Both the position numbers and the translations under genes were made by a program. 64,000 nucleotides of DNA from Hyaloperonospora brassicae. Taxonomy: Eukaryota > Oomycota > Peronosporomycetes > Peronosporales > Peronosporaceae. The notes below the pieces were generated by a model. That model was not told the DNA's origin and made no database searches. It saw only the letters and a list, made by a program, of their open reading frames with translations. Position 1 is the stretch's first letter; each line of letters begins with the position of its first letter. Below are positions 12,165-46,900 of this stretch, in pieces. The stretch spans positions 1 through 64,000 of the forward strand of contig CANTFL010001193.1 of NCBI GenBank assembly GCA_947650285.1. The letters run 5' to 3'.

Positions 12165-12165
12165 A
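11929..12165 (+). repeat. ~120-bp minisatellite in the protease-RT linker
   Basis: Near-identical units begin at about 11929 and 12049, with a decayed remnant after 12150 (GTGGCACGTGAAATT...GTCGGTAATGA). A1 has the same number. A3 has one unit fewer (its PR ORF is 40 residues shorter). The last unit carries the frame-shifting 2-bp deletion. Confidence 0.85.
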
Positions 12166-13392
12166 GTGGTACGTGTAAATCCACTGGGTGAAGTGTTCGA
12201 GTTACGTAACACTTCACCAGATGTCGTTCAAGACATGAGCTCTCGTATAGAGCGTGCTAAGATGAATAGCAACCACGGGGACCCTACTATCCCGGCCTCT
12301 AGGAGTCGTAAGGTTTCTTTGAGGAAACAATCCCAGCGTAGTGTGGCCACTGTGAAGCGCCCAACGTCTAAGAAGTCAAGAAGTGATAATTGTAATAATA
12401 CACTATATGCACTTGTCAATGGGTCTACTGGCCAGATCGATGGCAATATTAGTCTTGAGACTCTTCCATCCTTGGATACTCTCTTTGAACTAGACGAAAT
12501 GTCTGACGGCGAATTTAGTCAAGCCTTACAGGCAGAAGAATTATCCGAGTTAGTGGTCATTCGGCCGGATATTGAGTTGAAATCATCCTCGTTATTGGAC
12601 GAGTATGTCCTTGAGGATACAAAGGAGGCATTGGATGCCCGTAGTGGATCGTCGATCCTTGAGAATCCTCTTGATCCGTTCTATCCTTTGGTAAAGGAGT
12701 TTCAGGACGTGGTGTGTCACAACCCACCGTCCGTCTTACCTCCCGATAGAGGTGTACGTCATGAAATTGACTTGGTTCCTGGGACTAAATACTGCGTAAC
12801 ACGGCAGTGGCCCTTAACGAAGGAACAGTGTGACGTCATTGACGACTTCTTTCGTGCAAAGCACGCGGCAGGAATGGTACGTGAGAGCAAATCTCCCCAT
12901 TCCACACCGACCTATTGTGTCAAAAAGCCCAATGGGAAGTGGCGCATTGTTCATGCTTACAATAAGCTTAATGCAGCCAACATTCCGGCCCAGACACCAA
13001 TTCCGAGGAAAAATGTTCTTCAGAACAATATTCTGGGATGTACAATGTACAGTGCGCTCGACTTAGTCGATGGTTATTACCAATTTCTCATGCGAGAAAG
13101 CGATATTCCGCTGACAGCGGTCAGCACTCCAATCGGTATGCTCTGGGAGTGGCTTGTTATGCCGCAAGGGTTATCAAATGCCCCGGCTGCATTCAACCGT
13201 CTTGTGACACAAATGCTCAGACCTCACAGAGGTTATGCACATACATACTTTGATGACATCTTTGTCCATAGTCGTGCTATGAGCGGTCGGTCGGATGTGG
13301 ACAATCACATTGACCATTTACGAGCGGTGCTCGAGTGCATGCGCACGAATAGGTTGAAGCCAACGCGTCTTAGTGCATCTTTGGTACAATAG
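12100..13392 (+). pseudogene. A2 reverse transcriptase
   Basis: 430-codon ORF. It has an acidic linker, then RT motifs KKPNGKWRIVHAYNKLN, SALDLVDGYYQF, MPQGLSNAPAAFNR and YFDDIFVHS (catalytic DD). It ends at a TAG created by a frameshift after MRTNRL, so thumb and RNase H are out of frame. Confidence 0.88.
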
Positions 13393-13847
13393 AGATCCCC
13401 TTTTTAAGGTGCTTTATTGGTACGAGAGGCCTTCGAGCGGATCCCGCTAAGGTAAAAGCCATAGTCGATTGGCCGGTTCCTAAGAACCAGAAGGACTTAC
13501 GTAAGTGGCTTGGCCTTGTCAATTACTCACACAAGCATAGTGCGAACTATGCAGATATGGCTCGACCATTATCCAATCTTCTAAAAAATGATGTGGAATA
13601 ATGCTGAACCAGCACCGAGCATGGTTCTTTTCAAGCAGTTAAGGAGAGTCTCCTTCATGCGCCAGTCTTGGATTTGCCTGATCCTGATCGATCTTTCAGT
13701 GTCGTCTGTGACGCATCTGACTTTGCCATAGGCAGCGCTCTGTTACAGACAGATTCTGATGGACGGGAACGCGTCATTGTGTTTGATTACCGGTAGCTGA
13801 AGGCTGCAGAAAAGAACTACCAAGTTCATGACAAAGAGCTACTTGCA
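13393..13847 (+). pseudogene. A2 RT thumb/RNase H N-terminus, frame-broken
   Basis: Encodes GLRADPAKVKAIVDWPVP and WLGLVNYSHKHSANYADM (thumb/connection) and VVCDASDFAIGSALLQ (RNase H first Asp region). Breaks are a stop at about 13600 and TAG at 13794-13796, where family B has Gln in SRQLQAAE. Confidence 0.82.
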
Positions 13848-15179
13848 ATGAAGTATGCTCTCGTCAAATTCAGAGCTCATCTGCTTGGATCTAAGCCGTT
13901 TTTGATCTATACAGATCATGCGTCATTACGCACTGCGACTCAGTTGCCTCACCTCTCTCAGAGAATGGCTCGTTGGCTTTCCTTCTTTGCCGAATACAAC
14001 TTCGAGGTGAAGTATAAGCCGAACAAGCAGAATGCTTTGGCTGATGCGTTGTCCCGCAGGCCTGACTATGAGCTTGCTCATGTTACGACTCTGTCTTCGT
14101 CGGTCAATGACCTAATCCGTACGGCATATGCCAAGGATGAACATTGTGTAGCTCTTCTACGTGCTTTAGGGAGCGAGGAGTTTAAGGACTCGGACATCGA
14201 ATTGTCGGCACGGTTACGTGCGAGGTTACATCGATATTCTATCGATCAGGGCCTGTTGTGCTATAGCACGGATGTGGAGGATATTCCTCGCATCGTTGTC
14301 CCTCATGATGAGGAGTTGAAGTATCGGATCCTCTATGAGGCACATGGTACTGCGTTGAGTGGTCATCTGGGTCGTGAAAAGACCTATGGCTTAGTTAGCC
14401 AATGCCATTGGGGGCCCAAACTATACAAATGGGTGAGCACATATGTGCGTACGTGTGAAACGTGTCAACGGGTAAAACCCTCACTACACGCGGCAACGCC
14501 GCTGGCTAGTTTGCCTGTACCCAAAGGGTGTTGGGAGTCCGTCAGCATGGACTTCCTGTTCGGATTACCGAAGGATTCGTATGGAAATACGCGTATTGTG
14601 GTCTTTGTTGACCGTTTGATCAAGATGGCTCATTTAGCGGCGGTGCCAGATACCATTGATGGTGAAGGTGCAGCTACGCTGTTTATTGATCGGGTGTTTC
14701 GACAACATGGTTTGCCACTGGCAATTATCTCTGATAGAGATCCTCGCTTCACTGGGAATATTTGGAATTCCATCTTCAAGGTGCTTGGCACACGTTTGGA
14801 CATGTCCACAGCGGATCATCCGCAGACCGATGGTCAAACCGAGCGCGTGAATCGCGTCATCGGTGACATCTTGCGCAGTGTTTGCGCTGAAACGCCTTAG
14901 CGTTGGAGCTCGATGCTCCCTGTTGTTGGGTTTGCGTTGAACAACGCCGTGCATGCCTCTACAGGCTTTACTCCGTTTTACGTGAACGGTCTCACACACC
15001 CTCGCGTTCCGTTAACGCTACCACTGCGTGGTTCAGGGCTTGGTGGGGGAGGAGTTGCCGACCGGCTTGCTGATATCAGCCCTGCTACTGTTCAAAAACA
15101 GGTAAGCGAGTTTCTCGCAACGCGATTGAATGTGTTACGACCCGTGCGTGATGCACTGGCTGATAGCCAAGATAAATAG
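13848..15179 (+). pseudogene. A2 RNase H C-terminus and integrase core
   Basis: Begins MKYALVKFRAHLLG, then YTDHASLRT and ADALSRRPDYE (end of RNase H). The integrase zinc-binding domain is HGTALSGHLGREKTYG to CETCQRVKP. The catalytic core runs from MDFLFGLP through ISDRDPRFTG to HPQTDGQTERVNR. An in-frame TAG at 14898 precedes RWSSMLPVVGFALN, and a second TAG stands at 15177. Everything from 13797 to 15893 is one frame apart from these two stops, and A1 and A3 carry both. Confidence 0.88.
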
Positions 15180-15893
15180 AAGGAACAAGAAGATGCTAAA
15201 GGCAGAGGTTGTATTGAAAGTTATAAGGTCGGAGACCAAGTTCTACTCAGTGCTAAAAACCTACCTACGAATGTAGTGTCTGCCGTCTTCAAGACAAAGT
15301 TGCGTCCGCGCTTCATCGAACCATTCACGGTCGTCTCCAAGAAGGGACTTGCGTATACGCTCAACCTTCCGCGCAAACTGCGCACACACCCTGTGTTCTA
15401 CGTTGGTTTGCTTAAGCCGTATCGGGACCCGTCCCACGTGAACTTGGAGGCGCTTTCGCCGGGTAGGTTGTCCTTGCCATCGGTTGCTGAATCCGTATCA
15501 GGAGGTCAAGCTGAGCCTGCATCCGGGCTTGGCCCAACTCCAACGCCTGGACACGGGCTCGCAACGCGTCAAACGCACTCTGGGTCTTACCCAATGTCTC
15601 ACGGAGACCACTCATCTCGAGAAGAATCTTCTCATGCTCCTCCTTCGATATACCGACCACCTCCGACGCTGCTCGATGAGCAAGGGAACCGCCAGTTCCA
15701 TGTGGAGCGACTCCTGAAACGACGTCGTCGTCAGAATCAATACCAGTATCTGGTGAAGTGGAGAGGGTACCCGGAGTCGGAGAACTCGTGGGAGTTTGAG
15801 TCACCCTTTCGGCAGGACTGCGCATACGCCGTTGATGTTTTTGAACATCGTGGCAGGGGTCATCCCTCGACCGAGAGCGCTTCTCACCAATAG
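15180..15893 (+). pseudogene. A2 integrase C-terminal domain and chromodomain
   Basis: The GPY/F-like region (KLRPRFIEPFTVV, YTLNLPRKLRTHPVFYVGLLKPY) is followed by a Ser/Pro-rich linker and a C-terminal chromodomain (RQFHVERLLKRR, QYLVKWRGYPESENSWEFE). Chromodomains on gypsy integrases are thought to steer insertion to marked chromatin. The last 480 bp overlap an antisense ORF. Confidence 0.88.
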
Positions 15894-16714
15894 TGGTGGA
15901 GGCAGGTGGGTAGTTGGGTCCCGCTTGATCAACACCCACGCCAGTCGGCACAGCCGGAGCATAGCGTGTGCGAGTTCGCAACTGGCTTCTGGCCTTAAGC
16001 TTGGCGTAATCATACCGAAGCTTTCGTTCTAGACGAACGTCTGCCACATCGGCACTTGCTCTGAGAGCTAACACGCTGCTGAGTTGTCGTTTACGATGCA
16101 CCCAGCAAACAAAAGCGTTATCTTCTTCCTCCTGAGATTCGCATGCTAATAAAAGGATGGGTATACCCTTCATCGGTGGAACCGGTTCACCCCGTGCTTG
16201 CGTGTCAAGTCGCAACTTGTATTGACTTTGAGTCGTCAAGTGGGGTTGCAGGTACCTCTCGCAAAGTACTTGGCGACTCGCAATCTCATCAGAGGATGAT
16301 TGCTCAGCGCCGATGGCCCACGTTGCCAGAGAACGACCTGTCGTTTGGCGTATACGCTCTTCCAAACCGAGTGGAGTGACCAGATGGCCACGACGTCCTT
16401 CAAGGGTTGCAGCAAGCTACATACGGCGCTGAGCGCTCTCCTCGTGGTGGAGTACTAGTTGTTGTTGCTCATCGAGCGGATTGGTGATGATGGCATCGCC
16501 CACGATAAGTGTTTGATGCGGCGCCGATGGCGAGTTGGCTTCGCCATGCTCGGCAAATGGGTTTGGTGCAGTATGTGGCCGTGCCTCTTGCACTGGTGAG
16601 TCGAACATTGTCCTCTAGTCATAATGGATATCGGTATCGCTACCATAATCCACATCCACATCGATGTCCGAGGTAAGACGAGAGAGTCGAGGACTCATGG
16701 GGTGGCGATGCCAT
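15412..16714 (-). pseudogene. A2 antisense ORF (asORF-A), several lesions
   Basis: Runs opposite to pol from near the 3' LTR. The open part (15412-16365, 317 codons) contains RKRQLSSVLALRASADVADV, a basic stretch GEKRSRSRDD..KHQRRMRSP, and a heptad-like C-terminal segment (EEHEKILLEMSGLRETL to MQAQLDLLIRIQQ). Compared with A3, the first ATG is ACG, a 1-bp insertion lies near 16690, and TAGs stand near 16616 and 16417 (CAG in A3). It overlaps the chromodomain and linker of pol in antisense. I recognise no known domain beyond the coiled coil. Confidence 0.6.
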
Positions 16715-20949: not shown

Positions 20950-21104
20950 AAAGATCGGGGTATTAGGATCAAGCTTGAAGACTGGAAAGGGCGGACGTCA
21001 CGACACTCAGCGGGTTCCGTGCTGTCTCCTTTCATTGAAAGTAGCGATGACTGGTACCGTTTACGAGACAGAGTTATGCTAGCGATGAATTATTACGCCG
21101 TTGC

Positions 21105-21545
21105 TGTAACGGGGCACTGTTGACTACGTACTGGTTGACCAGTACGGAGTATACTTTCACTGACAATAGTGATCGACAGTGCCCTGCTAGGTGTTGAAGG
21201 AACAGAGAGGAAGGAAAGGAGACTAAGTAGTCAGACTAGTCTCTGGCAAAAGTAAAACTGTATTAATATAATTAAGTCCTATAACTCCTTGAATCTCTCT
21301 GTTGTCCTGACTTAATTGTACTAATGTAACTAAATGTATGTATGACGTCTACTCACCACCCATTGCACGCGTCTAGCAGCGATTGGTGGGTTGATATCAT
21401 CACGATATCAACCAATGAGTAGACCCTTCGGTCATCTCAACAATATCACCATGTCTGTGATATTGTTAGAAGAATATTCGAAGTAATATTATTTATTGTC
21501 AGATTGTTTTAGTGACAACCTCATGTAACGGGCTACTCCGTTACA
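21105..21545 (-). repeat. Solo LTR, family C
   Basis: 441 bp, very similar to 6579-7018. It is flanked by GTTGC and ATTGC, a likely 5-bp target duplication with one mismatch. Orientation is minus by analogy with family B. It is the product of LTR-LTR recombination inside the LINE. Confidence 0.9.
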
Positions 21546-22299
21546 ATTGCGATATGAATCACAAGATGCAGTTAGCGCGTCACATTTATTGCGTGTTGAT
21601 CTACCACGACGAAAATAAAGCACTAACAGGCAGCGAAGAGGAGCCCGATAATGGAGTCACGACTCGGTCGTGACGGTATTTTGCTTGGCTGAAGAGTACT
21701 AATACGTATCGGGCGGCATGCGCAGCCATGGCCGCCTCAGCAGACTAGACGATATTAGAAACGTTTTATGAGCAAGCAATCACCCAGATCGTCCTCAGCG
21801 GACTCTACGCTACGAAGAGCAGCCAGCACCGTCGGTGCCAGGCTAACCGGTAGATACTGCTCGCTAGTCTCCCATCGGGCGTTGATGAAATGGCACAAAC
21901 TATCGCCTAAAACGCTGTAATATGATTTAAAAGGTCACACATGACGTAATTTGTAGAAGTAAGCGGGTGGTATTTGTCGACACACAGATTTTCCGCGGTT
22001 TTAAAGACCAGACTTGTGACCGGTGGATGTAGGCATGGAAAAGAGGCCCTACCAACAGTATATCCATTGTGCTCTGCTTATAAGAAACACCTGTTGTAAT
22101 CGTATACTTGAGGAAAAGATCCGATATGATTGGAGGCGGCGGTGGGGGTACACCTCAAGTTTTTACGAGACCTCTCTTTCGTTCTGGAGTGTAGGACAAG
22201 GAAAAACCGGAGGGGTATCTTCCTTACTAGATCCTAGTCGTGCTTCAGGTGCAACTCCTTGGCATTCAGAACTATGGACAGAATGCGTCGCTGTTTTGA

Positions 22300-25241: not shown

Positions 25242-25656
25242 TGTAACGGGGCACACCCTTGCGTGAACTTAACGCAAGGGTAACGTGCGCCCGACGTGAT
25301 GTTCACGTGCGCGGAAGCGCAGGTAAGTAGAGAAAGTCAAAGACTTACACTGATGAGAAACTACAACTGTTTTATTAATATAATTAAGTCTATAACTCTT
25401 GTATCTCTTACTTGTTCTGACTTAATTATACTAATGTAACTGAATGTATGATGACGTCTACTCACTACCCATTGCGCGCGTCTTGCAGCGATTGGTGGGT
25501 TGATATCATCACGATATCAACCAATGAGTAGACTCTTTGGCCGTCCCAACAATATCACCACGATGGGTGATATTATTTACAGATTATTCAACATAATATT
25601 CTTTATTGTCATTATATTCTTAATGACAATTCCATGTAACGGGCTACCATGTTACA
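25242..25656 (-). repeat. B1 3' LTR
   Basis: 415 bp. In + orientation it runs TGTAACGGGGCACAC to CCATGTTACA. It contains serial hairpins, including CCCTTGCGT/ACGCAAGGG at 25256-25280. It differs noticeably from the 5' LTR of the same element. Confidence 0.93.
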
Positions 25657-25670
25657 TCACCCCTACCTTA
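25657..25670 (-). promoter_or_regulatory. B1 polypurine tract
   Basis: On the element strand a purine-rich run (AAGGTAGGGGTGA) abuts the 3' LTR. It is identical in B2. Confidence 0.7.
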
Positions 25671-25770
25671 TCTGATAGTCACACAGTGACTATCTGAAAC
25701 ATGATGGCCACCAGTTGGAAACTAATGGGACAGGGAGCAGTTGTTGGGTCACTTCCATTCACTACTGACT

Positions 25771-27393
25771 ATGCCTCGCAAAATTAACATGTCTATGCGA
25801 GGTGATTGAAAGCCCACACAGTCCGCTGCTGTGCCAGCCTCTGCGGCAGACGATCCGTCGTCTGATGCTGGTTTTCCGCATGCGGAAAAAGGTGCTGCAG
25901 GCGCACGTGGTATTGCACCGCGTGCACATGATAACCCCGACCTCGAGGTCATCTACCCTGGCGAGTCAGACGTGTCTGACTCGGGAAATGTTGCAGAGGC
26001 ATCCCGATCACCGGCGGTGCCTCATTGTTCACCAAGGACACTGCCGAACGTACGGACTCGCGACATGCGTCACAGTCTGTTCGGCAGTGATGAGGAATAT
26101 GGTGATGAGTATGTATGCTCATCACCGCGATCAACTCGTGCTCCTTCGCACGAGCGACTTGACGATGGTGCGAGCCGTCGTCATACTGATAACCGTGGTA
26201 TCGTCAGAGGTACCACTTCGAAGCGTGATGAGCTGAAGCCGTGGCGTTTGCCTGAACGGCTCATCAATAGCTTGTATCACGATACAATCCAACACCATCG
26301 AATACCTTTATTCGATACGAGTCAGCTTCATGGCTTAAGTTCCAGCGCGAGCAACTTCCGCGCTGAAGAAGACGTTTATCTCGATGCCTTCCTTCGGCAT
26401 CGATGGTATAACGGCAACCAAAAGCGTGATAAGAATTCGCTTTTGGCAGCGTGGAACGCCTTCGTCCAAAATGTCAAGAATTTTGGACGAGAAAGATGGC
26501 TGCAAAAACTTGAAGGGGTACGAATCAAGTTTGAAAAGCGAACGCCAACCGGTGCTAGGTACCGGTTGCATCGTTTGTCGAGTGAGGCAGATATTCCTTG
26601 CCTCACTTGGGGAGATCCGTGAGCGAGTTACGTTGACAACTCGCAACGTTCACATAGGGACGTGTATTCCCCAAGTTTGCCCTGGGGAAGGGCACACATC
26701 TCGGCTGAGATGCGGGATGCGATTGCAAACTTGCAATCCGTATACAAACGCCGAAAGCGTGTGTTTACCGATGGTCCCTCGGACCAATCGGATGAGTCTC
26801 GTCATATTGGTGAACGAGACCGGGCACATCCATCATCAGCTGGGAGCGGGATCCCCAACTGTTCCAAGAGGGTGGATACCCCCGCCACTGGACGAGGTAG
26901 CTCGTCCTTGATCCTGAATCGTCACGGTGGTTCAAGAAACGGTCCAGTAGAAAGCGTTGACCACCGTTTGAGTCCACCAAAGGATGTGGCGGAGGAGGAA
27001 AGACCTCCTCCGGAACGTTCTGCTCACCATCTCGATCCTTACGAGATGGATCGCGCAATCGTTGAATTGCGCGATAATTTGGAGCACGATAGGGACAGGC
27101 GTTACGCTCTGACCGATACCGTGCGGAAGCGCCGACAGGATCACGAGGCGGACTGTGCGAAGGACCGCGCTGAGTATGCGGTCGCACAGCTGCAGGTCGA
27201 GCGCGACGTCCGCTCTTTCTTTGGCGAGCCGGCGACGTCTCGCGGGGAGATATCTCGGTTGAGTTCCGAGGTCTCTTATCTACGCGACCAGACGGATCGT
27301 CTGGAGCGCGAACGCAAGAACTTGATGGATGTTCTTGAACGTGGGGGCTATCTTCATCGGAAGAAGAAGGCTCGTACTGACAGTACGGCCTGA
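25771..27393 (+). pseudogene. B1 antisense ORF (asORF-B), two in-frame TGA
   Basis: 541 codons from ATG at 25771 to the stop at 27391, in one frame except TGA at 25807 and 26620 (both also in B2). The N-terminal half has an acidic stretch GSDEEYGDEY and Ser/Arg-rich segments. The middle contains EEDVYLDAFLRHRWYNG. The C-terminal half has basic YKRRKR and a long charged heptad-like region (RKRRQDHEADCAKDRAEY to LRDQTDRLERERKNL). Positions 26765-27393 overlap the pol chromodomain and linker in antisense. It starts 115 bp from the 3' LTR, so antisense LTR transcription could reach it. Protein family unknown. Confidence 0.6.
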
Positions 27394-27993
27394 GCCTCCC
27401 TACGTAAAACGTAGGATGCGTGCGCATCTTACGTGGCAATTCGATCGTGTATGCATTGCCCTTGCGGTGCAACACTCGAAATGGGCCAATGTATTTCGGC
27501 AGTAGTAAACTACTGCCGACACTAGTGACTACGTGTCCCGGTAGGTTTACCGTAGACAGTAGTACTAGGTCGTTAACTTTAAATGAAAGAACATTTGCTC
27601 TTCCATTCTCGTCTGCGTTCCGTTTCTGAAGGTCCACCGCATTTGCGATGTATTCCTGAACGAAACGGACTACCGCCTCTCGAGTGAGCAGGAAGTTCTC
27701 TGCCGACTCGTTGTTTTGTCTTTCAGTGCGCTTCGTGCGCACTGCTAAGAGATTGTTCTCTTCTTCAGCGAGGTTGTCTTCTCCCTCGCTGGAATAATCG
27801 TTGACGATGCTGAATATACCAGCATTGTCATAATCATCCGAGTCAATAATAGCGTTGCTGCTATTATTGGGGTGGTGTGCTTCATCGATGTCGACCTGAT
27901 CGACATCGTCATCATACGTGACGACGTTAGCGTCGACACGTGATGGGCAAGAGCCAGAACGATTTTTGCTCGAGCGAGTCGCTCCCCCCTTAT
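26765..27993 (-). pseudogene. B1 integrase C-terminus and chromodomain
   Basis: Open for 410 codons. An acidic linker leads to FKVNDLVLLSTVNLPGHV and KYIGPFRVLHRKGNAYTIEL (GPY/F domain), RTHPTFYVGRLRPY, a disordered Arg/Pro/Ser linker, and a chromodomain (RFLLDRFLNHRDD, SYLVQWRGYPPSWNSWG). The disordered linker is the part lying opposite the coiled coil of asORF-B. Confidence 0.85.
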
Positions 27994-28584
27994 TCAAGAG
28001 TCACACTCTAGAAGGGCGGGCACACGTGGATGGCGTAAGCCATTCACGTAAAACGGTGTGTGCTGGATCGTAGCATTCACCGACTTATTGATGGCGAATT
28101 CAACCATTGGAAGGAATTCGCTCCAACTCGAAAACGAGTGGACATATCCTCGAAGGATCTGTTCGAGGACACGGTTCGCACGTTCTGTCTGACCATCTGT
28201 TTCTGGATGGTCAGATGTGGACATCTTTAACCGTGTTCCGAGTGAAAGGAACACGAAATGCCAAAATTTCGCCGTGAACCGAGGGTCACGATCGGATACG
28301 AGTTCACGGGGTATCCCGTGAAGCCAGAAAATCGTGTCGGTAAAGACACGAGCACAACCGTGTGCTGTGATCGACTTGGGTACAGCGGCAAGATGGACCA
28401 TCTTTCTGAACAGATCCACGAACACAAGAATACCGTTATTCTTGCAAACGTCTTCAGGGAATCCGAAGACGAAGTACATCGAAACGGACTGCCAGCACTC
28501 TGCCGCGACCGATAGAGGCTGTAAAGGTGCACAGGATGAAGGACTGGGCTTCACCCGTTGGCAAACCTCGCAAGCACGTACGTA
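27994..28584 (-). pseudogene. B1 integrase catalytic core
   Basis: Contains CQRVKPSPSS upstream, ILVFVDLFRKMVHLAAVP, ELVSDRDPRFTAKFWH and HPETDGQTERANRVLEQ, then the FAINKSVNATIQHTPFYVNG segment. A TAG near 28586 separates it from the zinc-binding domain. It ends at a stop just before the chromodomain ORF, with a frame change. Confidence 0.85.
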
Positions 28585-30015
28585 CTAGCGGGTAAACTGA
28601 TACTGGCGTGACCAGTAAAAGTCACGACTTACCGTGAGGTAAGTCTTTTCTCTTCCACGATGACCACCAGATGGTGCATCGTGAAACTCATACATAATAC
28701 GCAAGCGCAAGTTGTTATGAGCGGGAACGACGATACGAGGCGTGTCGCCGTCAACGGATGTATAATATAGCAGCCCGTTGCGTGTTGCATACCGATCCGA
28801 CGAGGATCGGTACAAAGCCGGTAAATCTTTCATAGCTTTACGGGTTGGATTCACCAGATGATCCATCAATCGTAGAAGATCCTTATCTTCTGCGTATGCC
28901 TTTCGTACGTCGTCAAGTAAACTTGACGATGGAATTCTGACTGTCAGTGTTAAAATAGTGGGCTTATCCTCACCTCTAAACTGCGCGTCCGACTCGAAAT
29001 CGGGCCGGCGCGAAAGCGCATCTGCGACGACGTTCAGTCGTCCTGGCTTGTATTCGACGGAGAAGTTGTACTCCGCGAAGAAGGACAGCCACTTCGCCAT
29101 GCGTTGCGAGAGGTGTGGGCTGTTTACGGCCGTGCGTAATAACGCATGGTCCGTATAGACAGCAAAAGATCTATCTCCGAGGAGATAGACGCGAAACTTA
29201 TCCAGTGCGTACTTCATGGCAAGGAGTTCCTTGTCATGCACTGGGTAATTGCGCTCAGCTGCCTGCAGCTGACGCGACTGATAACAGATGACGCGCTCCG
29301 CGCCATCTGCATCAAATTGCATTAACACACAGCCGATCGCAAAATCGCTGGCGTCACAGACCACGTGAAGTGGTCTGTCTTGATCTGCAATCGCTTGTAT
29401 CGGCGATTGCATCGAACTCTGCTTGATACCTTCAAAGTAACGCTGGCACTCAGCGTTCCATGCCCACTTGACATTTTTCTTGAGTAAACAAGAAAGATGT
29501 ACCGTCATTTCGGCATAGTTGCGCGAGTACTTGTGTGAGTACGCCGCTAGCCCAAGGAACTTACGAAGTCCCTTGACATCGACTGGCACTGTCCAGTCGG
29601 TGATCGCCTTGATCTTTTCGGGATCAGGGCGCACGCCGTGTTTACCCACGATGCACCCAAGAAGCAGTATTTCGCTAGCCGCGAATATACACTTCTTGAG
29701 ATATGCGAACAAATTATGCGTGCGCATAAGTTGAAGGACTTGACGAACGTGAGTTCTGTGAACCTCAACGCCCGTCTTTCCGTCCATAGCCCGGCTATGG
29801 ACGAACACATCGTCGAAATGACTCGATGCAAAGTCTCGCACCGGTCTCAAAAGATTTGTTACACATCTGTTGAATGTTGCAGGGGCGTAACTCAGCCCCT
29901 GTGGCATCACTAGCCACTCCCAAAACATACCGCTGGGGGTGCTCACTACCGTGAACGGGATATCCCGTTCACGCATGAGGATCCGATAGAATCCATCCAT
30001 CAGATCCATGGACAA
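28585..30015 (-). pseudogene. B1 RT palm-thumb, RNase H and integrase N-terminus; RT fingers deleted
   Basis: 476 codons: palm DLMDGFYRILMRE, MPQGLSYAPATFNR, catalytic HFDDVFVHS, thumb/connection IVGKHGVRPDPEKIKAITDW, RNase H VVCDASDFAIG, KELLAMKYAL, YTDHALLRT, ADALSRRPDFES, and the integrase zinc domain start (HDAPSGGHRGREKTY). Compared with family A, about 55 codons including KKPNGKWR and the first part of the palm are missing at the N-terminal junction, with a frame change. B2 shares the deletion, so this RT should be inactive. Confidence 0.88.
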
Positions 30016-30757
30016 GACCCGCTGCTACGCGATCGGCAAAGAACTTGTCGATTGCTATCACTGGTTCACGAGGAAATGTCCACTGCTTCATGACTCAATA
30101 TTTCGAGCCCTGTTTGAGCTCGATCTCGTGTCGAGTGCCTTTATCCTTAGGCAACTCTCAAGGTACGGATTCATAAAATACATTCTTGAATTCGATCAAA
30201 TCCTTATACAAAGGATTTGCCTGAAGTGTCTCCCAGGATTGAGACGTGTATTGCTCAATCCGAGTCTTCTCATCGAGGACACTTTCGTCCATCGATGAGC
30301 TGCTGAGAATCCGTTCGTTCTCAGCAAATACTGTCGCCGACCGAATATCGGCCACATACTCATCCTCTGTGACGAGTATGCAGATCTGCTTGACTTTGCC
30401 ACTACGCAGATCACGCAAGAACCGTTTCGGTTCTAGCGTTGGCAACTGAGTTATCTCCGAAGTTAACTTCGGAGGCACAATCAGATCAAGCGTATAAGCG
30501 CCTACGCTTGATCCGTCATTTACCAAGACGTTCAACGTCTCGGTTACTTCCTGGGAACTTCTTTCCACAGGTTGCTGAAGGCCTAATCCTTTAGCAAGTG
30601 ACTCTTGAGGAATTCCTTCCTCAAGTACGTGGGGACTTATCCCCTCTACGTCTTCTGACTGTGGCTGTGCAACCACAGTCAGGGACCGATCCTCTACGGT
30701 CGACTCTCCAGTCGACCTAGGATGACCATGTTGCATCCTGGTGGCAACAGGTTTCTT
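30016..30757 (-). pseudogene. B1 protease-RT linker and RT N-terminal stub
   Basis: Acidic linker (ITQLPTLEPKRFLRDLRSGK, YVADIRSATVFAENERIL), then ESVP-stop-ELPKDKGTRHEIEL and KY-stop-VMKQWTFPREP, and IDKFFADRVAAGLV at the deletion edge. Both stops are TGA. In family A the second position is Cys (GTKYCVTRQW). Confidence 0.8.
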
Positions 30758-31340
30758 TTATCTAGGAAGCTGCCCGCTAGGCATGCATCCATGTCCCGGT
30801 CTACTCGACTTATGCAAGTGGTGGACATTCGGCGCTGCCTGTACCTCTCTACAGCCGCCGGGAGCTTGCTCCACAGTGTAGTGATCATCTACACTGGGGT
30901 CCTGTGCAGTCGTGCTAACGACCGTACCGCAAGGAAGGCCATCGCACTCACTCGCAGTACATCCACACGCTTGTGGACGCTCCATGACGTTCATCAGATG
31001 GCCATCTATTAAACAAGCGGAAGGCATCTTTACGGATCGATGCTGCCAGCTCACTCTTGGCTCGTACTTTCTGAGCCAAGATAATCCCAGGATGACATCA
31101 AATTCGTCATCCAAATCTAGTACAATGAAGTCATCATCGTACTGTTCGCCCTCTAGCGTGTAGTGGATTCCCACTATACGTTTCTCAACGGTAATCGATG
31201 CGCCTGTTGCAAGGAGCACCGTCATCCGCGTTAGGGCAATGTCGCGCTCAACGAACTTGACTTACGATCGTCCAGTGACTGGCGACGAATAAAGTTATTC
31301 GACGCCCCACAGTCAACCAGAGCACGAAGTGACATGTCTT
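30758..31340 (-). pseudogene. B1 retropepsin-like protease
   Basis: The active-site segment VDCGASNNFIRRQSL is encoded at about 31280-31325. A frameshift near 31230 moves the remainder (TVLLATGASITVEKR, LDLDDEFDVILGLSWLRKYE) to another frame. DCGAS replaces the usual D-S/T-GA. Broken identically in B2. Confidence 0.8.
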
Positions 31341-31480
31341 TTGTCACTCCAATATTAAGGTGATGAGCGAAACGTCATCACCAGATGCAGAGACACACAA
31401 TGATTGTGTGTCTGGAGCAACTTTCGTCAAGAGATTTGCAATTTCTCTTTAGGTTGCAGGATCAGTAGAGCGCTCCGCCC

Positions 31481-32627
31481 CTACTGACCCCGTCCATTTT
31501 TTGATGGTCCGCTTCGCTGTTGCGGTTTCGCAACAGTGCTGGCCCCACCACTATTGCTCCTTTTGGCAAATGGACGACCATTTCGCTCAGTATTCTTTGG
31601 TACTGGGCGAGGGGTACTACACTCGTATGCGTCGTGTTCTAATTTCTGGCAGCGATTGCACATCAGCAATCTCTTGTTGTTTGAAGAGCGAGGTCTCTCG
31701 CTCTCAACATAACAGAGATCCTTTTGTTCGGGACCTCCGGACTCTTGTCGTCTCGGTGGACGATATGAGCTTGAGCTAGCATGAGCCTGTCTGATGGTAA
31801 AGTCCTCCTGTTCCGCTGCTGAGATCGCTTCTTCAATCGTATTCAGCTCTAGGCGGAACAGGTGGCTCCTGACGGGCCCTTCTGCGAGCCCTTGCATGAA
31901 CACCGTAATCAACGTGTGTTCATGAACTGGGTTAGCAGTTATACTACTCGCAAGGAGTCGTATATGTTGGGCGTAAGCGTGCACATCACGCTTACCCTGC
32001 TTAGTTTCAGGATCTCATATCGAGCCCTGAACTCAGCCCTTGGCGGCTCAGACGTGCGTTTGAGCCGGGTCTTGGAGTCTTCGAGCGACTCAAAAGCATA
32101 TGGGTCGCTCATCTCCAGCCGTAAGGCCCAAGTCTTGGCACGTCCAGCCAAGTGGGATTGATCAAATGTTAATTTCATTTGCTCATCGTCAATACGACGT
32201 GCCTTCATGGATCTGTGTAGTTCGACGAACCATAATAACAGGGAGTCTTCTTCAACTCCTCTGTGCTTGGAAACTTCAACCTTCAAGATTTCGGGACGAC
32301 GTGCATGCGTCGTCCCGCCAACAGCAGCATTAAATTGCAGCTGTCTCAACAGCTCAGTCTGTTGAGCACCGAGTTCTCTCAACTTCTCGGCCTGTTGAGA
32401 GACTTGCTGGTGAAGCAAGGCTACGCTTACCCGTTCAGCGACAAGTTCGTGTTGAATGAACCAGGCAATATCGACATGTTGTTGGTCTCTATCAAGAGAC
32501 TTCAACATGGCGGTAACGCCAATGTCGCCCACGGTAGAGCTCTTCGTCCTACCGCGGCCCATTCGGGGTCACTCAAATGGGCGAAGCCTTCACGTGTTAC
32601 GTGAAAGGTCTCCTCACCATCCAACAT
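31481..32627 (-). pseudogene. B1 gag
   Basis: Starts at ATG 32627 (MLDGEETFHVTREGF). The core includes a Gln/Leu-rich heptad stretch (QQAEKLRELGAQQTELLRQL) and WALRLEMSDPYAFESLED. The C-terminus carries CNRCQKLEHDAYEC, a CCHC-type knuckle. A frameshift near 32560 is B1-specific. Another near 31960 (LSRVSVMC to HAYAQHIRLL) is shared with B2. A perfect 10-bp hairpin (32619-32640) surrounds the start codon in B1 only. Confidence 0.85.
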
Positions 32628-32670
32628 GTTCATGTTGGATGAGATGAGTGGTCGCTGGAAGGACTACAAA

Positions 32671-32679
32671 GTGCTACCA
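32671..32679 (-). promoter_or_regulatory. B1 primer binding site
   Basis: The element strand reads TGGTAGCAC, a few bases inside the 5' LTR, matching an initiator tRNA-Met 3' end. It is the same as in family A. Confidence 0.7.
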
Positions 32680-32681
32680 GG

Positions 32682-33094
32682 TGTAACGGGGCACACCTTG
32701 TGTCGAACCGACACAAGGCGAGGTGCACCCGACGTGACGTACACGTGCGAGGAATGGCAGGTAAGTAGAGAAAGTCAAAGACTTACTCTAAGGAAAAAGT
32801 AGAACTATTTTATTAACATAATTGAGTCTATAACTCTTGTATCTCTTACTTGTTCTGACTTAATTATACTAATGTAACTGAATGTATGATGACGTCTATT
32901 CGCCACTCATTGCGCGCGTCTTGCAGCGATTGGTGGGTTGATATCATTACGATATCAACCAATGAGTAGACTCTTTGGCCGTCCCAACAATATCACCACG
33001 ATGGGTGATATTATTTAGAGAATATTCAACATAACATTCTTTATCGTCATTATCTTCTTAATGACAATTCCATGTAACGGGCTACCCTGTTACA
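32682..33094 (-). repeat. B1 5' LTR
   Basis: 413 bp. Its 3'-terminal hairpin is CCTTGTGTCG/CGACACAAGG (32696-32718), while the 3' LTR of the same element has CCCTTGCGT/ACGCAAGGG. The pairing is kept although both arms changed. Confidence 0.93.
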
Positions 33095-39462: not shown

Positions 39463-39883
39463 TTTAACAAGGTAGCCCGTTTCATGGAAATTGTCATTTG
39501 ATAAGATAATGACAATAAAGAATATTATGTTGAATATTCTCTAAATAATATCACCAAGCGTGGTGATATGGTTGGGACGGCCAAAGAGTCTACTCATTGG
39601 TTGATATCGTAATGATATCAACCCACCAATCGCTGCAAGACGCGCGCATGGGTTGTGAGTAGACGTCATCATACATTCAGTTACATTAGTATAATTAAGT
39701 CAGAACAAGTAAGAGATACAAGAGTTATAGACTCAATTATGTTAATAAAGCGGTTCTATTTTCCCCATAAGACAGATTTTTCGGGTTCTGTTTTACCTGC
39801 CGCTTCCTCGGTTGCCCTGTGTACGCTTTCACGGGCGCACGGTACCCTTGCGTGAACTTAACGCAAAGGTGTGCCCCGTTGCA
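39463..39883 (+). repeat. B2 5' LTR
   Basis: 421 bp, starting TTTTAACAAGGTAGCCCG (terminal motif mutated from TGTAAC) and ending GTGTGCCCCGTTGCA. Carries AATAAA near 39744. Confidence 0.92.
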
Positions 39884-39886
39884 CCT

Positions 39887-39895
39887 GGTAGCACT
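39887..39895 (+). promoter_or_regulatory. B2 primer binding site
   Basis: TGGTAGCAC, three bases after the LTR end, initiator tRNA-Met type. Confidence 0.7.
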
Positions 39896-39939
39896 TTGTT
39901 GTCCTTCCAGAGACCACAACTACATTGTCCATCACGTAC

Positions 39940-41088
39940 ATGTTAGATGGTGAGGAGACCTTTCACGCCACGCGTGAAGGGTTTACCCATTTTAGTGATA
40001 TCGAATGGAGTGCAGTAGAACGCATGAGTTTTACGGTAGACGATATCGTCATTAGCGCCATGTTGGAGTCTCTTGACAGAGACCAACAACATGTCGATAT
40101 TGCCAGGTTCACCCAAAATGAACGTGTCGCCGAAAGGGAGAAAGTACCTTTGCTTCACCATCAAGGCTCTCAACAGGCCGAGAAGTTGAGAGAACTCGGT
40201 GCTCAACAGACTGAGCTGTTGAGACAGCTGCAATTTAATGCTGCTGTTGGCGGGACGACGCATGCACGTCGTCCCGAAATCTTGAAGGTTGAAGTTTCCA
40301 AGCACAGAGGAGTTGAAGAAGACTCCCTGTTATTATGGTTCGTCGAACTACGACAGATGCATAAAGGCACGTCGTATTGACGATGAGCAAATGAAATTAA
40401 CATTTGATCAATCCCACTTGGCTGGACGTGCCAAGACTTGGGCCTTACGGCTGGAGATGAGCGACCCATATGCTTTTGAGTCGCTCGAAGACTCCAAGAC
40501 CCGGCTCAAACGCACGTCTGAGCCGCCAAGGGCTGAGTTCAGGGCTCGATATGAGATCCTGAAACTAAGCAGGGTAAGCGTGATGTGCACGCTTACGCCC
40601 AACATATACGACTCCTTGCGAGTAGTATAACTGCTAACCCAGTTCATGAACACACGTTGATTACGGTGTTCATGCAAGGGCTCGCAGAAGGGCCCGTCAG
40701 GAGCCACCTGTTCCACCTAGAGCTGAATACGATTGAAGAAGCGATCTCAGCAGCGGAACAGGAGGACTTTACCATCAGACAGGCTCATGCTAGCTCAAGC
40801 TCATATCGTCCACCGAGACGACAAGAGTCCGGAGGTCCCGAACAAAAGGATCTCTGTTATGTTGAGAGCGAGAGACCTCGCTCTTCAACCAACAAGAGAT
40901 TGCTGATGTGCAATCGCTGCCAGAAATTAGAACACGACGCATACGAGTGTAGTACCCCTCGCCCAGTACCAAAGAATACTGAGCGAAATGGTCGTCCATT
41001 TGCCAAAAGGAGCAATAGTGGTGGGGCCAGCACTGTTGCGAAACCGCAACAGCGAAGCGGACCATCAAAAAATGGACGGGGTCAGTAG
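39940..41088 (+). pseudogene. B2 gag
   Basis: ATG at 39940 (MLDGEETFHATREGF). The N-terminus is intact, unlike B1. A B2-specific frame loss lies near 40350-40370 (after LWFVEL). The frameshift near 40600 is shared with B1. The C-terminal CCHC-like CNRCQKLEHDAYEC is present. Confidence 0.85.
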
Positions 41089-41233
41089 GGGCGGAGCGCT
41101 CTACTGATCCTGCAACCTAAAGAGAAATTGCAAATCTCTTGACGAAAGTTGCTCCAGACACACAATCATTGTGTGTCTCTGCATCTGGTGATGACGTTTC
41201 GCTCATCACCTTAATATTGGAGTGACAAAAGAC

Positions 41234-41811
41234 ATGTCACTTCGTGCTCTGGTTGACTGTGGGGCGTCGAATAACTTTATTCGTCGCCAGTCACTGGACG
41301 ATCGTAAGTCAAGTTCGTTGAGCGCGACATTGCCCTAACGCGGATGACGGTGCTCCTTGCAACAGGCGCATCGATTACCGTTGAGAAACGTATAGTGGGA
41401 ATCCACTACACGCTAGAGGGCGAACAGTACGATGATGACTTCATTGTACTAGATTTGGATGACGAATTTGATGTCATCCTGGGATTATCTTGGCTCAGAA
41501 AGTACGAGCCAAGAGTGAGCTGGCAGCATCGATCCGTAAAGATGCCTTCCGCTTGTTTAATAGATGGCCATCTGATGAACGTCATGGAGCGTCCACAAGC
41601 GTGTGGATGTACTGCGAGTGAGTGCGATGGCCTTCCTTGCGGTACGGTCGTTAGCACGACTGCACAAGACCCCAGTGTAGATGATCACTACACTGTGGAG
41701 CAAGCTCCCGGCGGCTGTACAGAAGTACAGGCTGCGCCGAAGGTCCACCACTCGAATAAGTCGAGTAGACCGGGACATGGATGCATGCCTAGCGGGCAGC
41801 TTCCTAGATAA
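41234..41811 (+). pseudogene. B2 retropepsin-like protease
   Basis: VDCGASNNFIRRQSL near 41250-41300, then a frameshift and LDLDDEFDVILGLSWLRKYE. Mirrors B1, including the break. Confidence 0.8.
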
Positions 41812-41832
41812 AAGAAACCTGTTGCCACCAGG

Positions 41833-42550
41833 ATGCAACATGGTCATCCTAGGTCGACTGGAGAGTCGACCGTAGAGGATCGGTCCCTGACTGTGGTTGC
41901 ACAGCCACAGTCAGAAGACGTAGAGGGGATAAGTCCCCACGTACTTGAGGAAGGAATTCCTCAAGAGTCACTTGCTAAAGGATTAGGCCTTCAGCAACCT
42001 GTGGAAAGAAGTTCCCAGGAAGTAACCGAGACGTTGAACGTCTTGGTAAATGACGGATCAAGCGTAGGCGCTTATACGCTTGATCTGATTGTGCCTCCGA
42101 AGTTAACTTCGGAGATAACTCAGTTGCCAACGCTAGAACCGAAACGGTTCTTGCGTGATCTGCGTAGTGGCAAAGTCAAGCAGATCTGCATACTCGTCAC
42201 AGAGGATGAGTATGTGGCCGATATTCGGTCGGCGACAGTATTTGCTGAGAACGAACGGATTCTCAGCAGCTCATCGATGGACGAAAGTGTCCTCGATGAG
42301 AAGACTCGGATTGAGCAATACACGTCTCAATCCTGGGAGACACTTCAGGCAAATCCTTTGTATAAGGATTTGATCGAATTCAAGAATGTATTTTATGAAT
42401 CCGTACCTTGAGAGTTGCCTAAGGATAAAGGCACTCGACACGAGATCGAGCTCAAACAGGGCTCGAAATATTGAGTCATGAAGCAGTGGACATTTCCTCG
42501 TGAACCAGTGATAGCAATCGACAAGTTCTTTGCCGATCGCGTAGCAGCGG
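41833..42550 (+). pseudogene. B2 protease-RT linker and RT stub
   Basis: 192-codon open linker ending NVFYESVP at TGA 42409-42411, then ELPKDKGTRHEIEL, a second TGA in KY-stop-VMKQW, and IDKFFADRVAAGLV up to the fingers deletion. Confidence 0.8.
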
Positions 42551-42553
42551 GTC

Positions 42554-43984
42554 TTGTCCATGGATCTGATGGATGGATTCTATCGGATCCTCATGCGTGA
42601 ACGGGATATCCCGTTCACGGTAGTGAGCACCCCCAGCGGTATGTTTTGGGAGTGGCTAGTGATGCCACAGGGGCTGAGTTACGCCCCTGCAACATTCAAC
42701 AGATGTGTAACAAATCTTTTGAGACCGGTGCGAGACTTTGCATCGAGTCATTTCGACGATGTGTTCGTCCATAGCCGGGCTATGGACGGAAAGACGGGCG
42801 TTGAGGTTCACAGAACTCACGTTCGTCAAGTCCTTCAACTTATGCGCACGCATAATTTGTTCGCATATCTCAAGAAGTGTATATTCGCGGCTAGCGAAAT
42901 ACTGCTTCTTGGGTGCATCGTGGGTAAACACGGCGTGCGCCCTGATCCCGAAAAGATCAAGGCGATCACCGACTGGACAGTGCCAGTCGATGTCAAGGGA
43001 CTTCGTAAGTTCCTTGGGCTAGCGGCGTACTCACACAAGTACTCGCGCAACTATGCCGAAATGACGGTACATCTTTCTTGTTTACTCAAGAAAAATGTCA
43101 AGTGGGCATGGAACGCTGAGTGCCAGCGTTACTTTGAAGGTATCAAGCAGAGTTCGATGCAATCGCCGATACAAGCGATTGCAGATCAAGACAGACCACT
43201 TCACGTGGTCTGTGACGCCAGCGATTTTGCGATCGGCTGTGTGTTAATGCAATTTGATGCAGATGGCGCGGAGCGCGTCATCTGTTATCAGTCGCGTCAG
43301 CTGCAGGCAGCTGAGCGCAATTACCCAGTGCATGACAAGGAACTCCTTGCCATGAAGTACGCACTGGATAAGTTTCGCGTCTATCTCCTCGGAGATAGAT
43401 CTTTTGCTGTCTATACGGACCATGCGTTATTACGCACGGCCGTAAACAGCCCACACCTCTCGCAACGCATGGCGAAGTGGCTGTCCTTCTTCGCGGAGTA
43501 CAACTTCTCCGTCGAATACAAGCCAGGACGACTGAACGTCGTCGCAGATGCGCTTTCGCGCCGGCCCGATTTCGAGTCGGACGCGCAGTTTAGAGGTGAG
43601 GATAAGCCCACTATTTTAACACTGACAGTCAGAATTCCATCGTCAAGTTTACTTGACGACGTACGAAAGGCATACGCAGAAGATAAGGATCTTCTACGAT
43701 TGATGGATCATCTGGTGAATCCAACCCGTAAAGCTATGAAAGATTTACCGGCTTTGTACCGATCCTCGTCGGATCGGTATGCAACACGCAACGGGCTGCT
43801 ATATTATACATCCGTTGACGGCGACACGCCTCGTATCGTCGTTCCCGCTCATAACAACTTGCGCTTGCGTATTATGTATGAGTTTCACGATGCACCATCT
43901 GGTGGTCATCGTGGAAGAGAAAAGACTTACCTCACGGTAAGTCGTGACTTTTACTGGTCACGCCAGTATCAGTTTACCCGCTAG
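42554..43984 (+). pseudogene. B2 RT palm-thumb, RNase H, integrase N-terminus; fingers deleted
   Basis: Identical in content to 28585-30015: DLMDGFYRI, HFDDVFVHS, RNase H motifs and the integrase HHCC start. It ends at TAG 43982. The same N-terminal deletion relative to family A. Confidence 0.88.
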
Positions 43985-44576
43985 TACGTACGTGCTTGCG
44001 AGGTTTGCCAACGGGTGAAGCCCAGTCCTTCATCCTGTGCACCTTTACAGCCTCTATCGGTCGCGGCAGAGTGCTGGCAGTCCGTTTCGATGTACTTCGT
44101 CTTCGGATTCCTTGAAGACGTTTGCAAGAATAACGGTATTCTTGTGTTCGTGGATCTGTTCAGAAAGATGGTCCATCTTGCCGCTGTACCCAAGTCGATC
44201 ACAGCACACGGTTGTGCTCGTGTCTTTACCGACACGATTTTCTGGCTTCACGGGATACCCCGTGAACTCGGTATCCGATCGTGACCCTCGGTTCACGGCG
44301 AAATTTTGGCATTTCGTGTTCCTTTCACTCGGAACACGGTTAAAGATGTCCACATCTGACCATCCAGAAACAGATGGTCAGACAGAACATGCGAACCGTG
44401 TCCTCGAACAGATCCTTCGAGGATATGTCCACTCGTTTTCGAGTTGGAGCGAATTCCTTCCAATGGTTGAATTCGCCATCAATAAGTCGGTGAATGCTAC
44501 GATCCAGCCCACACCGTTTTACGTGAATGGCTTACGCCATCCACGTGTGCCCGCCCTTCTAGAGTGTGACTCTTGA
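43985..44576 (+). pseudogene. B2 integrase core, frameshifted
   Basis: ILVFVDLFRKMVHLAAVP in one frame and SDRDPRFTAKFWH, HPETDGQTEHANRV in another. An extra frameshift near 44268 (PRELGIRS) is specific to B2; B1 is continuous here. Confidence 0.83.
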
Positions 44577-45805
44577 ATAAGGGGGGAGCGACTCGCTCGA
44601 GCAAAAATCGTTCTGGCTCTTGCCCATCACGTGTCGACGCTAACGTCGTCACGTATGATGCCGATGTCGATCAGGTCGACATCGATGAAGCACACCACCC
44701 CAATAATAGCAGCAACGCTATTATTGGCTCGGATGATTATGACAATGCTGGTATATTCAGCATCGTCAACGATTATTCCAGCGAGGGAGAAGACAACCTC
44801 GCTGAAGAAGAGAACAATCTCTTAGCAGTGCGCACGAAGCGCACTGAAAGAAAAAACAACGAGTCAGCAGAGAACTTCCTGCTCACTCGAGAGGCGGTAG
44901 TCCGTTTCGTTCAGGAATACATCGCAAATGCGGTGGACCTTCAGAAACGGAACGCAGACGAGAATGGAAGAGCAAATGTTCTTTCATTTAAAGTTAACGA
45001 CCTAGTACTACTGTCTACGGTAAACCTACCGGGACACGTAGTCACTAGTGTCGGCAGTAGTTTACTACTGCCGAAATACATTGGCCCATTTCGAGTGTTG
45101 CACCGCAAGGGCAATGCATACACGATCGAATTGCCACGTAAGATGCGCACGCATCCTACGTTTTACGTAGGGAGGCTCAGGCCGTACTGTCAGTACGAGC
45201 CTTCTTCTTCCGATGAAGATAGCCCCCACGTTCAAGAACATCCATCAAGTTCTTGCGTTCGCGCTCCAGACGATCCGTCTGGTCGCGTAGATAAGAGACC
45301 TCGGAACTCAACCGAGATATCTCCCCGCGAGACGTCGCCGGCTCGCCAAAGAAAGAGCGGACGTCGCGCTCGACCTGCAGCTGTGCGACCGCATACTCAG
45401 CGCGGTCCTTCGCACAGTCCGCCTCGTGATCCTGTCGGCGCTTCCGCACGGTATCGGTCAGAGCGTAACGCCTGTCCCTATCGTGCTCCAAATTATCGCG
45501 CAATTCAACGATTGCGCGATCCATCTCGTAAGGATCGAGATGGTGAGCAGAACGTTCCGGAGGAGGTCTTTCCTCCTCCGCCACATCCTTTGGTGGACTC
45601 AAACGGTGGTCAACGCTTTCTACTGGACCGTTTCTTGAACCACCGTGACGATTCAGGATCAAGGACGAGCTACCTCGTCCAGTGGCGGGGGTATCCACCC
45701 TCTTGGAACAGTTGGGGATCCCGCTCCCAGCTGATGATGGATGTGCCCGGTCTCGTTCACCAATATGACGAGACTCATCCGATTGGTCCGAGGGACCATC
45801 GGTAA
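44573..45805 (+). pseudogene. B2 integrase C-terminus and chromodomain
   Basis: 410 codons matching B1: GPFRVLHRKGNAYTIEL, RTHPTFYVGRLRPY, disordered linker, chromodomain LVQWRGYPPSWNSWG. Overlaps asORF-B in antisense. Confidence 0.85.
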
Positions 45806-46799: not shown

Positions 46800-46900
46800 A
46801 GTCAGTAGTGAATGGAAGTGACCCAACAACTGCTCCCTGTCCCATTAGTTTCCAACTGGTGGCCATCATGTTTCAGATAGTCACTGTGTGACTATCAGAT

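Follow-up and report, generated by a model that had tools for sequence, protein, structure and literature searches.

Introduction

Some RNA viruses display ordered RNA structure on a genome scale, with strongly negative folding z-scores along the whole length of the genome. Perfect inverted repeats inside functional genes are known from the mitochondria of Nematomorpha, where coding palindromes reach up to 284 bp and template switching has been proposed as their origin (Mikhailov 2019, PMC6649704). In yeast, homogenisation of hairpin arms and inversion of spacers have been ascribed to template switching (Abraham and Hazkani-Covo 2021, PMC8604942). Here we analyse a stretch of 64,000 nucleotides from the oomycete Hyaloperonospora brassicae (assembly GCA_947650285.1, contig CANTFL010001193.1, positions 1 to 64,000 of the forward strand; hereafter the window), in which Ty3/gypsy retroelements of two families, A and B, are tiled with short perfect hairpins of narrowly limited total span.

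With the ordered structure of RNA viruses these elements share negative z-scores along the genome; here, however, the structure is strand-symmetric, perfectly Watson-Crick paired and narrow in span. The nearest published pattern, going by the accessible parts of that report, is formed by the coding palindromes of Nematomorpha (PMC6649704). Both systems carry perfect inverted repeats in functional coding genes, with a preserved protein and a phase bias, but the repeats described here are mostly 5–12 bp long, keep to a narrow span, run through coding and non-coding DNA and belong to a retroelement clade. Moreover, the same parts of the Nematomorpha report give no excess of imperfect repeats, whereas 29 imperfect hairpins compared to 3.7 expected are found here. 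Arm homogenisation, compensatory changes and spacer inversion are shared with the template-switch hairpins described by Monttinen and Löytynoja (2022, PMC8794818) and with those of yeast (PMC8604942); as far as the accessible text of these papers extends, they concern scattered events in cellular DNA replication, in contrast to the element-long lattice found here in one clade of the sample. The genomic RNA of yeast Ty3 is also that of a structured Ty3/gypsy genome, but it is a mosaic with local functional elements, and the available portion of that study describes no hairpin lattice (PMC11381356). Among the papers listed by searches of the open PubMed Central library, none describes a retroelement tiled in this way, which does not show its absence from print.

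Hairpin tiling of family B

Two B elements are located in the window. Their features, with LTR denoting a long terminal repeat, are as follows.

25242..33094, minus strand: B1, a hairpin-tiled Ty3/gypsy element with LTRs of about 413–415 bp, ends taken from alignment
32682..33094, minus strand: 5' LTR of B1, 4 stems of at least 7 bp compared to 0.38 expected
25242..25656, minus strand: 3' LTR of B1, 4 stems compared to 0.40
39465..47332, plus strand: B2, inverted near-identical copy of B1, tiled alike (inverted repeats I1 and I3)
29950..29973, no strand: 24-bp perfect palindrome in reverse transcriptase codons, exact in the sequence
30455..30474, no strand: 20-bp perfect palindrome, exact in the sequence
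26462..26490, no strand: example hairpin with an 11-bp stem and a 7-nt loop, exact in the sequence

Unless indicated otherwise, stems are perfect Watson-Crick stems of at least 7 bp with loops of up to 12 nt, and counts are compared with dinucleotide shuffles. B1 contains 95 such stems compared to 5.43 ± 2.20 in 200 shuffles (maximum 12), and B2 contains 93 compared to 5.29. Positions 25840–26650 alone hold 15 stems, compared to a mean of 0.59 and a maximum of 4 in 500 shuffles. The original prediction, made from the letters of the window, had proposed a stem density above chance that continues through coding DNA, and both points are borne out; the perfect stems it listed are exact at their positions in 20 of 20 cases. 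The range it gave starts at 25771, a position that lies inside B1, as the LTRs give 25242–33094.

Since B1 and B2 are near-identical inverted copies, they were treated as one sample and independent B copies were sought elsewhere in the genome (100.56 Mb, 898 contigs). Two locus searches scored the best 40 of 1837 and the best 150 of 3511 candidates and do not represent a census. All 30 loci of the first set are B-type (B1 and B2 included), with 46–66 stems per 4 kb. The second set likewise numbers 30, of which 24 are B-type, with 35–57 stems per 3.3 kb compared to 1.6–3.5 expected. Six A-type loci were removed from the B set, and 52 B loci beyond B1 and B2 were used, at least three of which repeat genomic copies from the first locus set (L051, L058 and L060 are genomic copies of L010, L016 and L022).

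The B copy C246, read in three pieces, illustrates the tiling outside the window, with 140 stems in 7976 bp compared to 5.96 in shuffles. Its LTRs are identical over 388 bp, whereas those of B1 are about 93% alike; B1 is the older copy with fewer stems, and C246 the younger one. The tiling of C246 opens at the first base of the LTR, and flanks of 276 and 349 bp contain zero stems. Along the element the density is even, with 14.8–20.5 stems per kb across seven stretches, and 144 hairpins make up 42% of its length. In the coding part, 57 stems were counted compared to 3.07 ± 1.72 in shuffles that exchange synonymous codons; the tiling is independent of codon choice.

The hairpins of B share no sequence: repeated 8-, 10- and 12-mers amount to 530, 41 and 1, compared to 481, 33 and 1.7 expected, which rules out that the hairpins are copies of one dispersed sequence. 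Direct, mirror and parallel repeats were rejected as a true signal (3 vs 1.5, 5 vs 0.7 and 2 vs 1.0 in copy L030), the mirror-repeat excess being small although non-zero. It is extremely improbable that composition, codon usage, the assembly or duplicated copies produce the tiling as an artefact. Artefacts of this kind do exist, such as the 28 stems in the 36–37 kb bin, which stem from G/C homopolymer sequence, or the stems of the copia locus L067, five of 10 of which lie in or at a tandem repeat, but dinucleotide and synonymous shuffles, the occurrence on many contigs and the covariation described below contradict such an origin for the pattern itself. The long G and C homopolymer runs at 36.3–36.6 kb are probably a sequencing or assembly error.

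Hairpin span and the smaller hairpins of family A

In C246, stems of 7–14 bp and loops of 0–14 nt add up to total spans whose mean is 23.4 and whose mode is 23 nt. Shorter loops go with longer stems (rho -0.19, p 0.02), and the standard deviation of the span is 3.62 compared to 4.21 after permutation (p 0.0009), indicating that stem and loop trade off. Complementarity as a function of half-distance is 0.97–0.99 at 6–8, drops to 0.77 at 11 and 0.42 at 13, and is at chance level from 14. Neighbouring hairpins are almost non-overlapping, with 6 of 141 neighbours sharing at most 4 nt. This span rule was missed by the original prediction, which understated the observation.

Tiling had been presented as a feature of B, and B is tiled, but family A is tiled as well. 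Because the folding z-score of A is about -1.5, the family was re-examined with smaller stems, and hairpins with a span of 12–16 nt were counted as A-class. An A family free of hairpins, and with it a tiling unique to B, is a product of the 7-bp cut-off. The A-type features of the window are as follows.

1..7028, minus strand: A1, family-A gypsy element with a body span of 12–16 nt and larger hairpins in the LTR; 102 A-class hairpins compared to 23.1 in 500–6500
7134..16700, plus strand: A2, family A, small-hairpin tiling except in 416-bp tandem repeats and LTR; A-class counts below
56673..64000, minus strand: A3, family A, small-hairpin tiling; 126 A-class hairpins compared to 24.6 in 57200–63700
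21101..21546, minus strand: solitary A-type LTR with B-size hairpins; 5 stems compared to 0.45

Stems of family A are 5–6 bp long, with a modal span of 13–14 nt. In A2, 114 A-class hairpins compared to 20.8 occur in 10640–16370 and 17 compared to 5.3 in 7590–8830, whereas 8830–10640, within the several copies of the 416-bp tandem repeats (8816–10741), holds 3 compared to 7.0. In the family-A locus L063, the combination of a 5-bp stem and a 3-nt loop is seen 29 times compared to 2.0, and 100 small hairpins are found compared to 20.9 ± 4.8 in synonymous shuffles. With short loops, stems of 4, 5 and 6 bp exceed the shuffles, whereas those of at least 7 bp do not clearly do so. Complementarity is 0.87 at half-distance 6 and 0.35 at 7; the 5-bp cut-off contributes to this drop, but the comparison of stem and loop counts with shuffles agrees with it. 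The A span differs from that of B, with p 1e-24 at a 5-bp and 1e-13 at a 6-bp cut-off. Eight 1-kb bins at 48001–56000 contain 43 A-class hairpins compared to about 34 in total, two of these bins having 10 and 11 compared to 3.9.

The LTRs of A and B are alignable, and several hairpins lie at identical places in both, while near the LTR 3' end the hairpins of A and B differ in sequence at a comparable place. The claim that the stems of A occupy different sites, and hence turn over, consequently fails for several LTR hairpins; elsewhere, A does differ in size class. The LTRs at 6579–7028, 7134–7590 and 21101–21546 bear B-size hairpins, in contrast to the small hairpins of the A bodies, and the A1 LTR (6579–7028) holds 5 B-class hairpins compared to 0.3. 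LTR-like stretches outside B1 and B2 (19.1–19.7 and 21.1–21.5 kb) also carry B-size hairpins. These observations suggest that A LTRs acquired B-size hairpins perhaps through LTR exchange between the families.

The span of A bears directly on a link with host small RNAs, one of the causes named in the original prediction, in which hairpin-sized units would spoil guide or target function. Phytophthora small RNAs measure 21 and 25 nt according to the accessible part of the respective study (PMC3804510), and the span of B resembles these lengths. However, A in the same host has a span of 13–14 nt, so that a small-RNA ruler does not fit, and the copia loci L068–L070 are without hairpin excess. We therefore regard this link as very unlikely.

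A span that resembles a footprint and differs between families could also point to selection at the level of the double strand. In that case the dyads would either form cruciforms or be bound by a dimeric protein with relaxed sequence demands (such as the element's Gag or integrase, or a host factor), and the footprint of this protein would set the span. The strand symmetry described below agrees with such selection. Short interrupted dyads of 5 bp, as in family A, are unlikely to extrude, which counts against cruciforms, and the lack of shared sequence among hairpins, with k-mer repeats near expectation, argues against this kind of selection as well. Taken together, double-strand selection appears unlikely, though less so than the small-RNA link.

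Related families and controls

Two further families are tiled: D (L082 and L085, 98.8% alike, 54% to B at the amino acid level) and E (L083, 53% to B and 63% to A over 228 amino acids), both with hairpin spans of about 18–24 nt. These stretches, as well as L081 and L084 (five in total), were chosen by eye among the results of a single search that used a distant gypsy protein. When stems are at least 7 bp long, the 133 hairpins of B average a span of 23.1 nt, the 21 of D 21.2 nt and the 11 of E 22.4 nt. The difference between D and B is slight (p 0.001–0.008). D also differs from A, with p 2e-10 at a 5-bp and 1e-6 at a 6-bp cut-off; for E compared to B, p is 0.32. An own size for every family was accordingly rejected: only A is clearly distinct, whereas the difference of D from B is slight and that of E is not clear.

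The distant gypsy pieces L081 (31%) and L084 (29%) display no tiling. Copia stretches had been proposed to be without the pattern. Among the copia pieces examined (L067–L070), L068–L070 lack a hairpin excess, as expected, but L067 contains 10 stems compared to 2.3, five of them in or bordering a tandem repeat at 463–541. The stretch at 47.2–56.6 kb of the window, unannotated, without A or B element and taken as host, holds 7 stems of at least 7 bp compared to 7.5 expected, so this stretch does not equal B in density. Three of four arbitrary genome stretches contain 1–5 stems compared to about 2.4; the fourth, L074, contains 16 compared to 1.7, with 12 of the 16 located in two LTR-like stretches resembling A and B LTRs.

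Since tiling is found in A, B, D and E but not in the two distant gypsy pieces, three of the four copia pieces or the stretch taken as host, it is, in this sample, confined to one Ty3/gypsy clade, whose chromodomain is demonstrated in B. In B1, the Pfam families PF00078, PF17917 and PF17919 (gypsy-type reverse transcriptase and RNase H) match above cut-off. For an integrase, expected after the reverse transcriptase in such elements, an H2C2 match (PF17921) lies above cut-off, and the integrase core (PF00665) scores 31.2 bits, slightly below its cut-off of 32.6. The C-terminal chromodomain (PF00385) scores 33.7 bits at a cut-off of 25.1. Among the best 120 of 2318 matches, the nearest named proteins are from Peronospora and Phytophthora. 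Inspection of the flanks by eye gave a putative, imperfect target-site duplication with four of five bases equal in B1 (TGAGG/TGAGA) and likewise four of five in C246.

Gypsy-like pol sequences are also present on contigs binned as Erythrobacter and Cyclobacteriaceae (L079 and L080), which probably represent eukaryotic contamination of these bins; no comparable tiling is seen at either locus. A collection of viral contigs yielded zero oomycete-like relatives.

Folding, strand symmetry and protein

The mean folding z-score of C246 is -4.76 for the sense and -4.89 for the antisense strand, and a fraction of 0.91 of 65 folding windows lies below -2. Corresponding means are -3.68 and -3.64 (sense and antisense) in B1 and -1.48 and -1.47 in L063 of family A, where strand labels are provisional; values in host and copia are near 0. 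The folding scores proposed as a check are thus strongly negative in B and close to zero in the controls.

In the main rival to a copying origin, locally folded genomic RNA is selected, for packaging, stability or hiding from antisense RNA or nucleases, so that one hairpin per few tens of nucleotides is maintained and hairpins are built by synonymous changes. However, sense and antisense fold equally well, and the sense bias expected from such selection is absent in B. RNA folding alone, moreover, predicts neither a sharp ceiling of total span nor differing spans in sister families. The loops are ambiguous in this respect, as they are A-rich in the sense strand of B, in agreement with RNA selection, but T-rich in A.

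The encoded protein is kept at conserved sites, where agreement with homologues is seen for 103 of 111 stem codons and 280 of 299 other codons. In addition, B avoids the phase in which third codon positions pair together (11/57, p 0.02), while A displays no such avoidance (37/100). Both the kept protein and the phase avoidance of B are in line with selection on RNA built within coding limits; the agreement with homologues at conserved sites also counts in favour of a copying origin filtered by protein function.

Sequence evolution of the stems

For the analysis of variants, 37 of 53 B rows were kept after removal of near-identical rows, and the A alignment comprises 10 rows, with the A-type loci L052, L053, L055 and L075–L078, which duplicate other copies, excluded. 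Spacer tests used all 53 B rows, each distinct spacer variant being counted once. Since the copies are related, covariation figures for B are counts and not events.

Singleton variants per site are similar throughout B, with 0.350 in stems, 0.389 in loops and 0.373 in gaps. Variants found in two or more copies are less frequent in stems (0.122) than in loops (0.266) and gaps (0.191), and under another stem definition the shared values are 0.152, 0.247 and 0.186. In A, stem sites have 0.065 shared variants compared to 0.119 elsewhere, and 0.079 compared to 0.103 singletons. Double changes that retain Watson-Crick pairing number 57 in B compared to 14–20 in slid controls, with 31 other doubles; in A, 15 of 19 double changes are Watson-Crick compared to 2–6 in slid controls. 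Stems are therefore conserved in inherited variants and accompanied by compensatory changes, an example being the palindrome at 29950–29973, whose central base pair is changed in copy L030 and compensated. Constraint on inherited rather than private variants of B and compensation in both families are explained equally well by RNA selection.

The fate of mismatches speaks differently. One-sided stem changes in B led to G-U in 28 shared and 109 single variants, to A-C in 28 and 112, and to other mismatches in 42 and 166; mismatches flanking the stems on the outer and inner side amount to 25 G-U and 24 A-C. In B, G-U is thus tolerated no better than A-C or transversion mismatches, and this equal fate fits a templated process better than one with a tolerance for wobble pairs. 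RNA selection, which the original prediction had also named, thus explains the constraint on inherited variants but not the missing G-U tolerance and sense bias in B, and we consider it possible but rather improbable.

Spacers give a further indication. In 2-nt spacers of B, all four of four double changes are exact inversions, compared to 26 of 244 adjacent doubles elsewhere, and additionally one 3-nt spacer is exactly inverted. By analogy with yeast (PMC8604942, accessible part), such inversions may represent footprints of template switching.

Further features of the window

The 3' part of B contains an antisense reading frame, present in B1 as two main pieces (window 25831–26622 and 26662–27393, plus strand) and in a piece of C246 as a frame open over 440 codons (L062:1–1320, minus strand). 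It has no Pfam match, and 22 database proteins match it, including one of Hyaloperonospora brassicae (80% over 57%) and one of Peronospora matthiolae (40% over 92%). The frame is possibly a real antisense gene.

Large inverted duplications with 99–100% identity join 5930–7028 to 7134–8232, B1 to B2 and A1 to A2. They derive from segmental inverted duplication or from assembly.

Discussion

The pattern is solid and certain, and only its mechanism is inferred. We favour, as a reading that may well be correct though it falls somewhat short of an even chance, that fold-back template switching, taking place while the element itself carries out reverse transcription, both creates and maintains the hairpins, with protein function acting as a filter. 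The growing strand would fold back on itself over a short distance determined by the enzyme, one arm of a quasi-palindrome that had arisen by chance would be copied onto the other arm, and the strand would then return to the template. Over many cycles, local quasi-palindromes would be perfected wherever the protein tolerates it, and dead copies would lose their hairpins through ordinary mutation. Such a copying process is preferred because of the clade limits, the span difference between A and B, the strand symmetry and the equal fate of mismatches in B; together with the spacer inversions these make template switching, already listed among the causes in the original prediction, the best fit, although it is not proven. 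A bolder form of this reading is more doubtful: the reverse transcriptase of families in this clade would fold the strand it makes back on itself across a fixed length and in this way palindromise its own genome, the span would be an enzyme-encoded ruler readable from the DNA, and coding sequence would be rewritten mostly synonymously.

Several observations weigh against fold-back copying. Only A compared to the rest offers a firm size difference, as D is near B and E indistinct, and the B-size hairpins in A LTRs force the extra assumption of LTR capture from a B-like element. The depletion of variants in B stems is limited to shared variants, as selection also predicts. At the strictest support, shared mismatches in B number 18 G-U, 11 A-C and 17 others, and in A shared G-U changes outnumber A-C changes (20 vs 12). 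On the sense strand, loops are rich in adenine in family B (0.31) and in thymine in family A (0.32), and the 29 imperfect hairpins lie in the long gaps between B hairpins. Across all protein sites, stem codons are less homologue-like than others (0.610 vs 0.667, p 0.009), which is accounted for in part by their position at less conserved sites (0.741 vs 0.782).

The footprints of copying are open to similar objections. Two of the five spacer inversions occur in copy L012, one is reachable via a palindromic intermediate, and the inversions may post-date insertion. The inversion test was devised with the first cases already in view, and spacers of at least 3 nt alone contribute 1 compared to 0.04 expected. 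None of 64 multi-change variants is inverted in B loops of at least 4 nt, nor is any of 14 in A spacers, and conversion of imperfect to perfect arms was not seen within a single copy. Singletons that create Watson-Crick pairs are weakly in excess (70/172 vs 0.33 in the control, p 0.04), and the corresponding shared variants amount to 49/122 (p 0.2); some of the pair-making variants may be old states.

If the ruler reading is true, a replication enzyme has left a structural signature across a whole genome that predicts the enzyme's own geometry, and compensatory changes, usually taken as proof of a selected RNA structure, would here result from copying. If selection is responsible instead, the elements would possess an RNA architecture that is extreme, extends over the whole genome and is not the same in sister families of a single host. 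In both cases, selected and copied hairpins can be tested against each other using many copies of different age.

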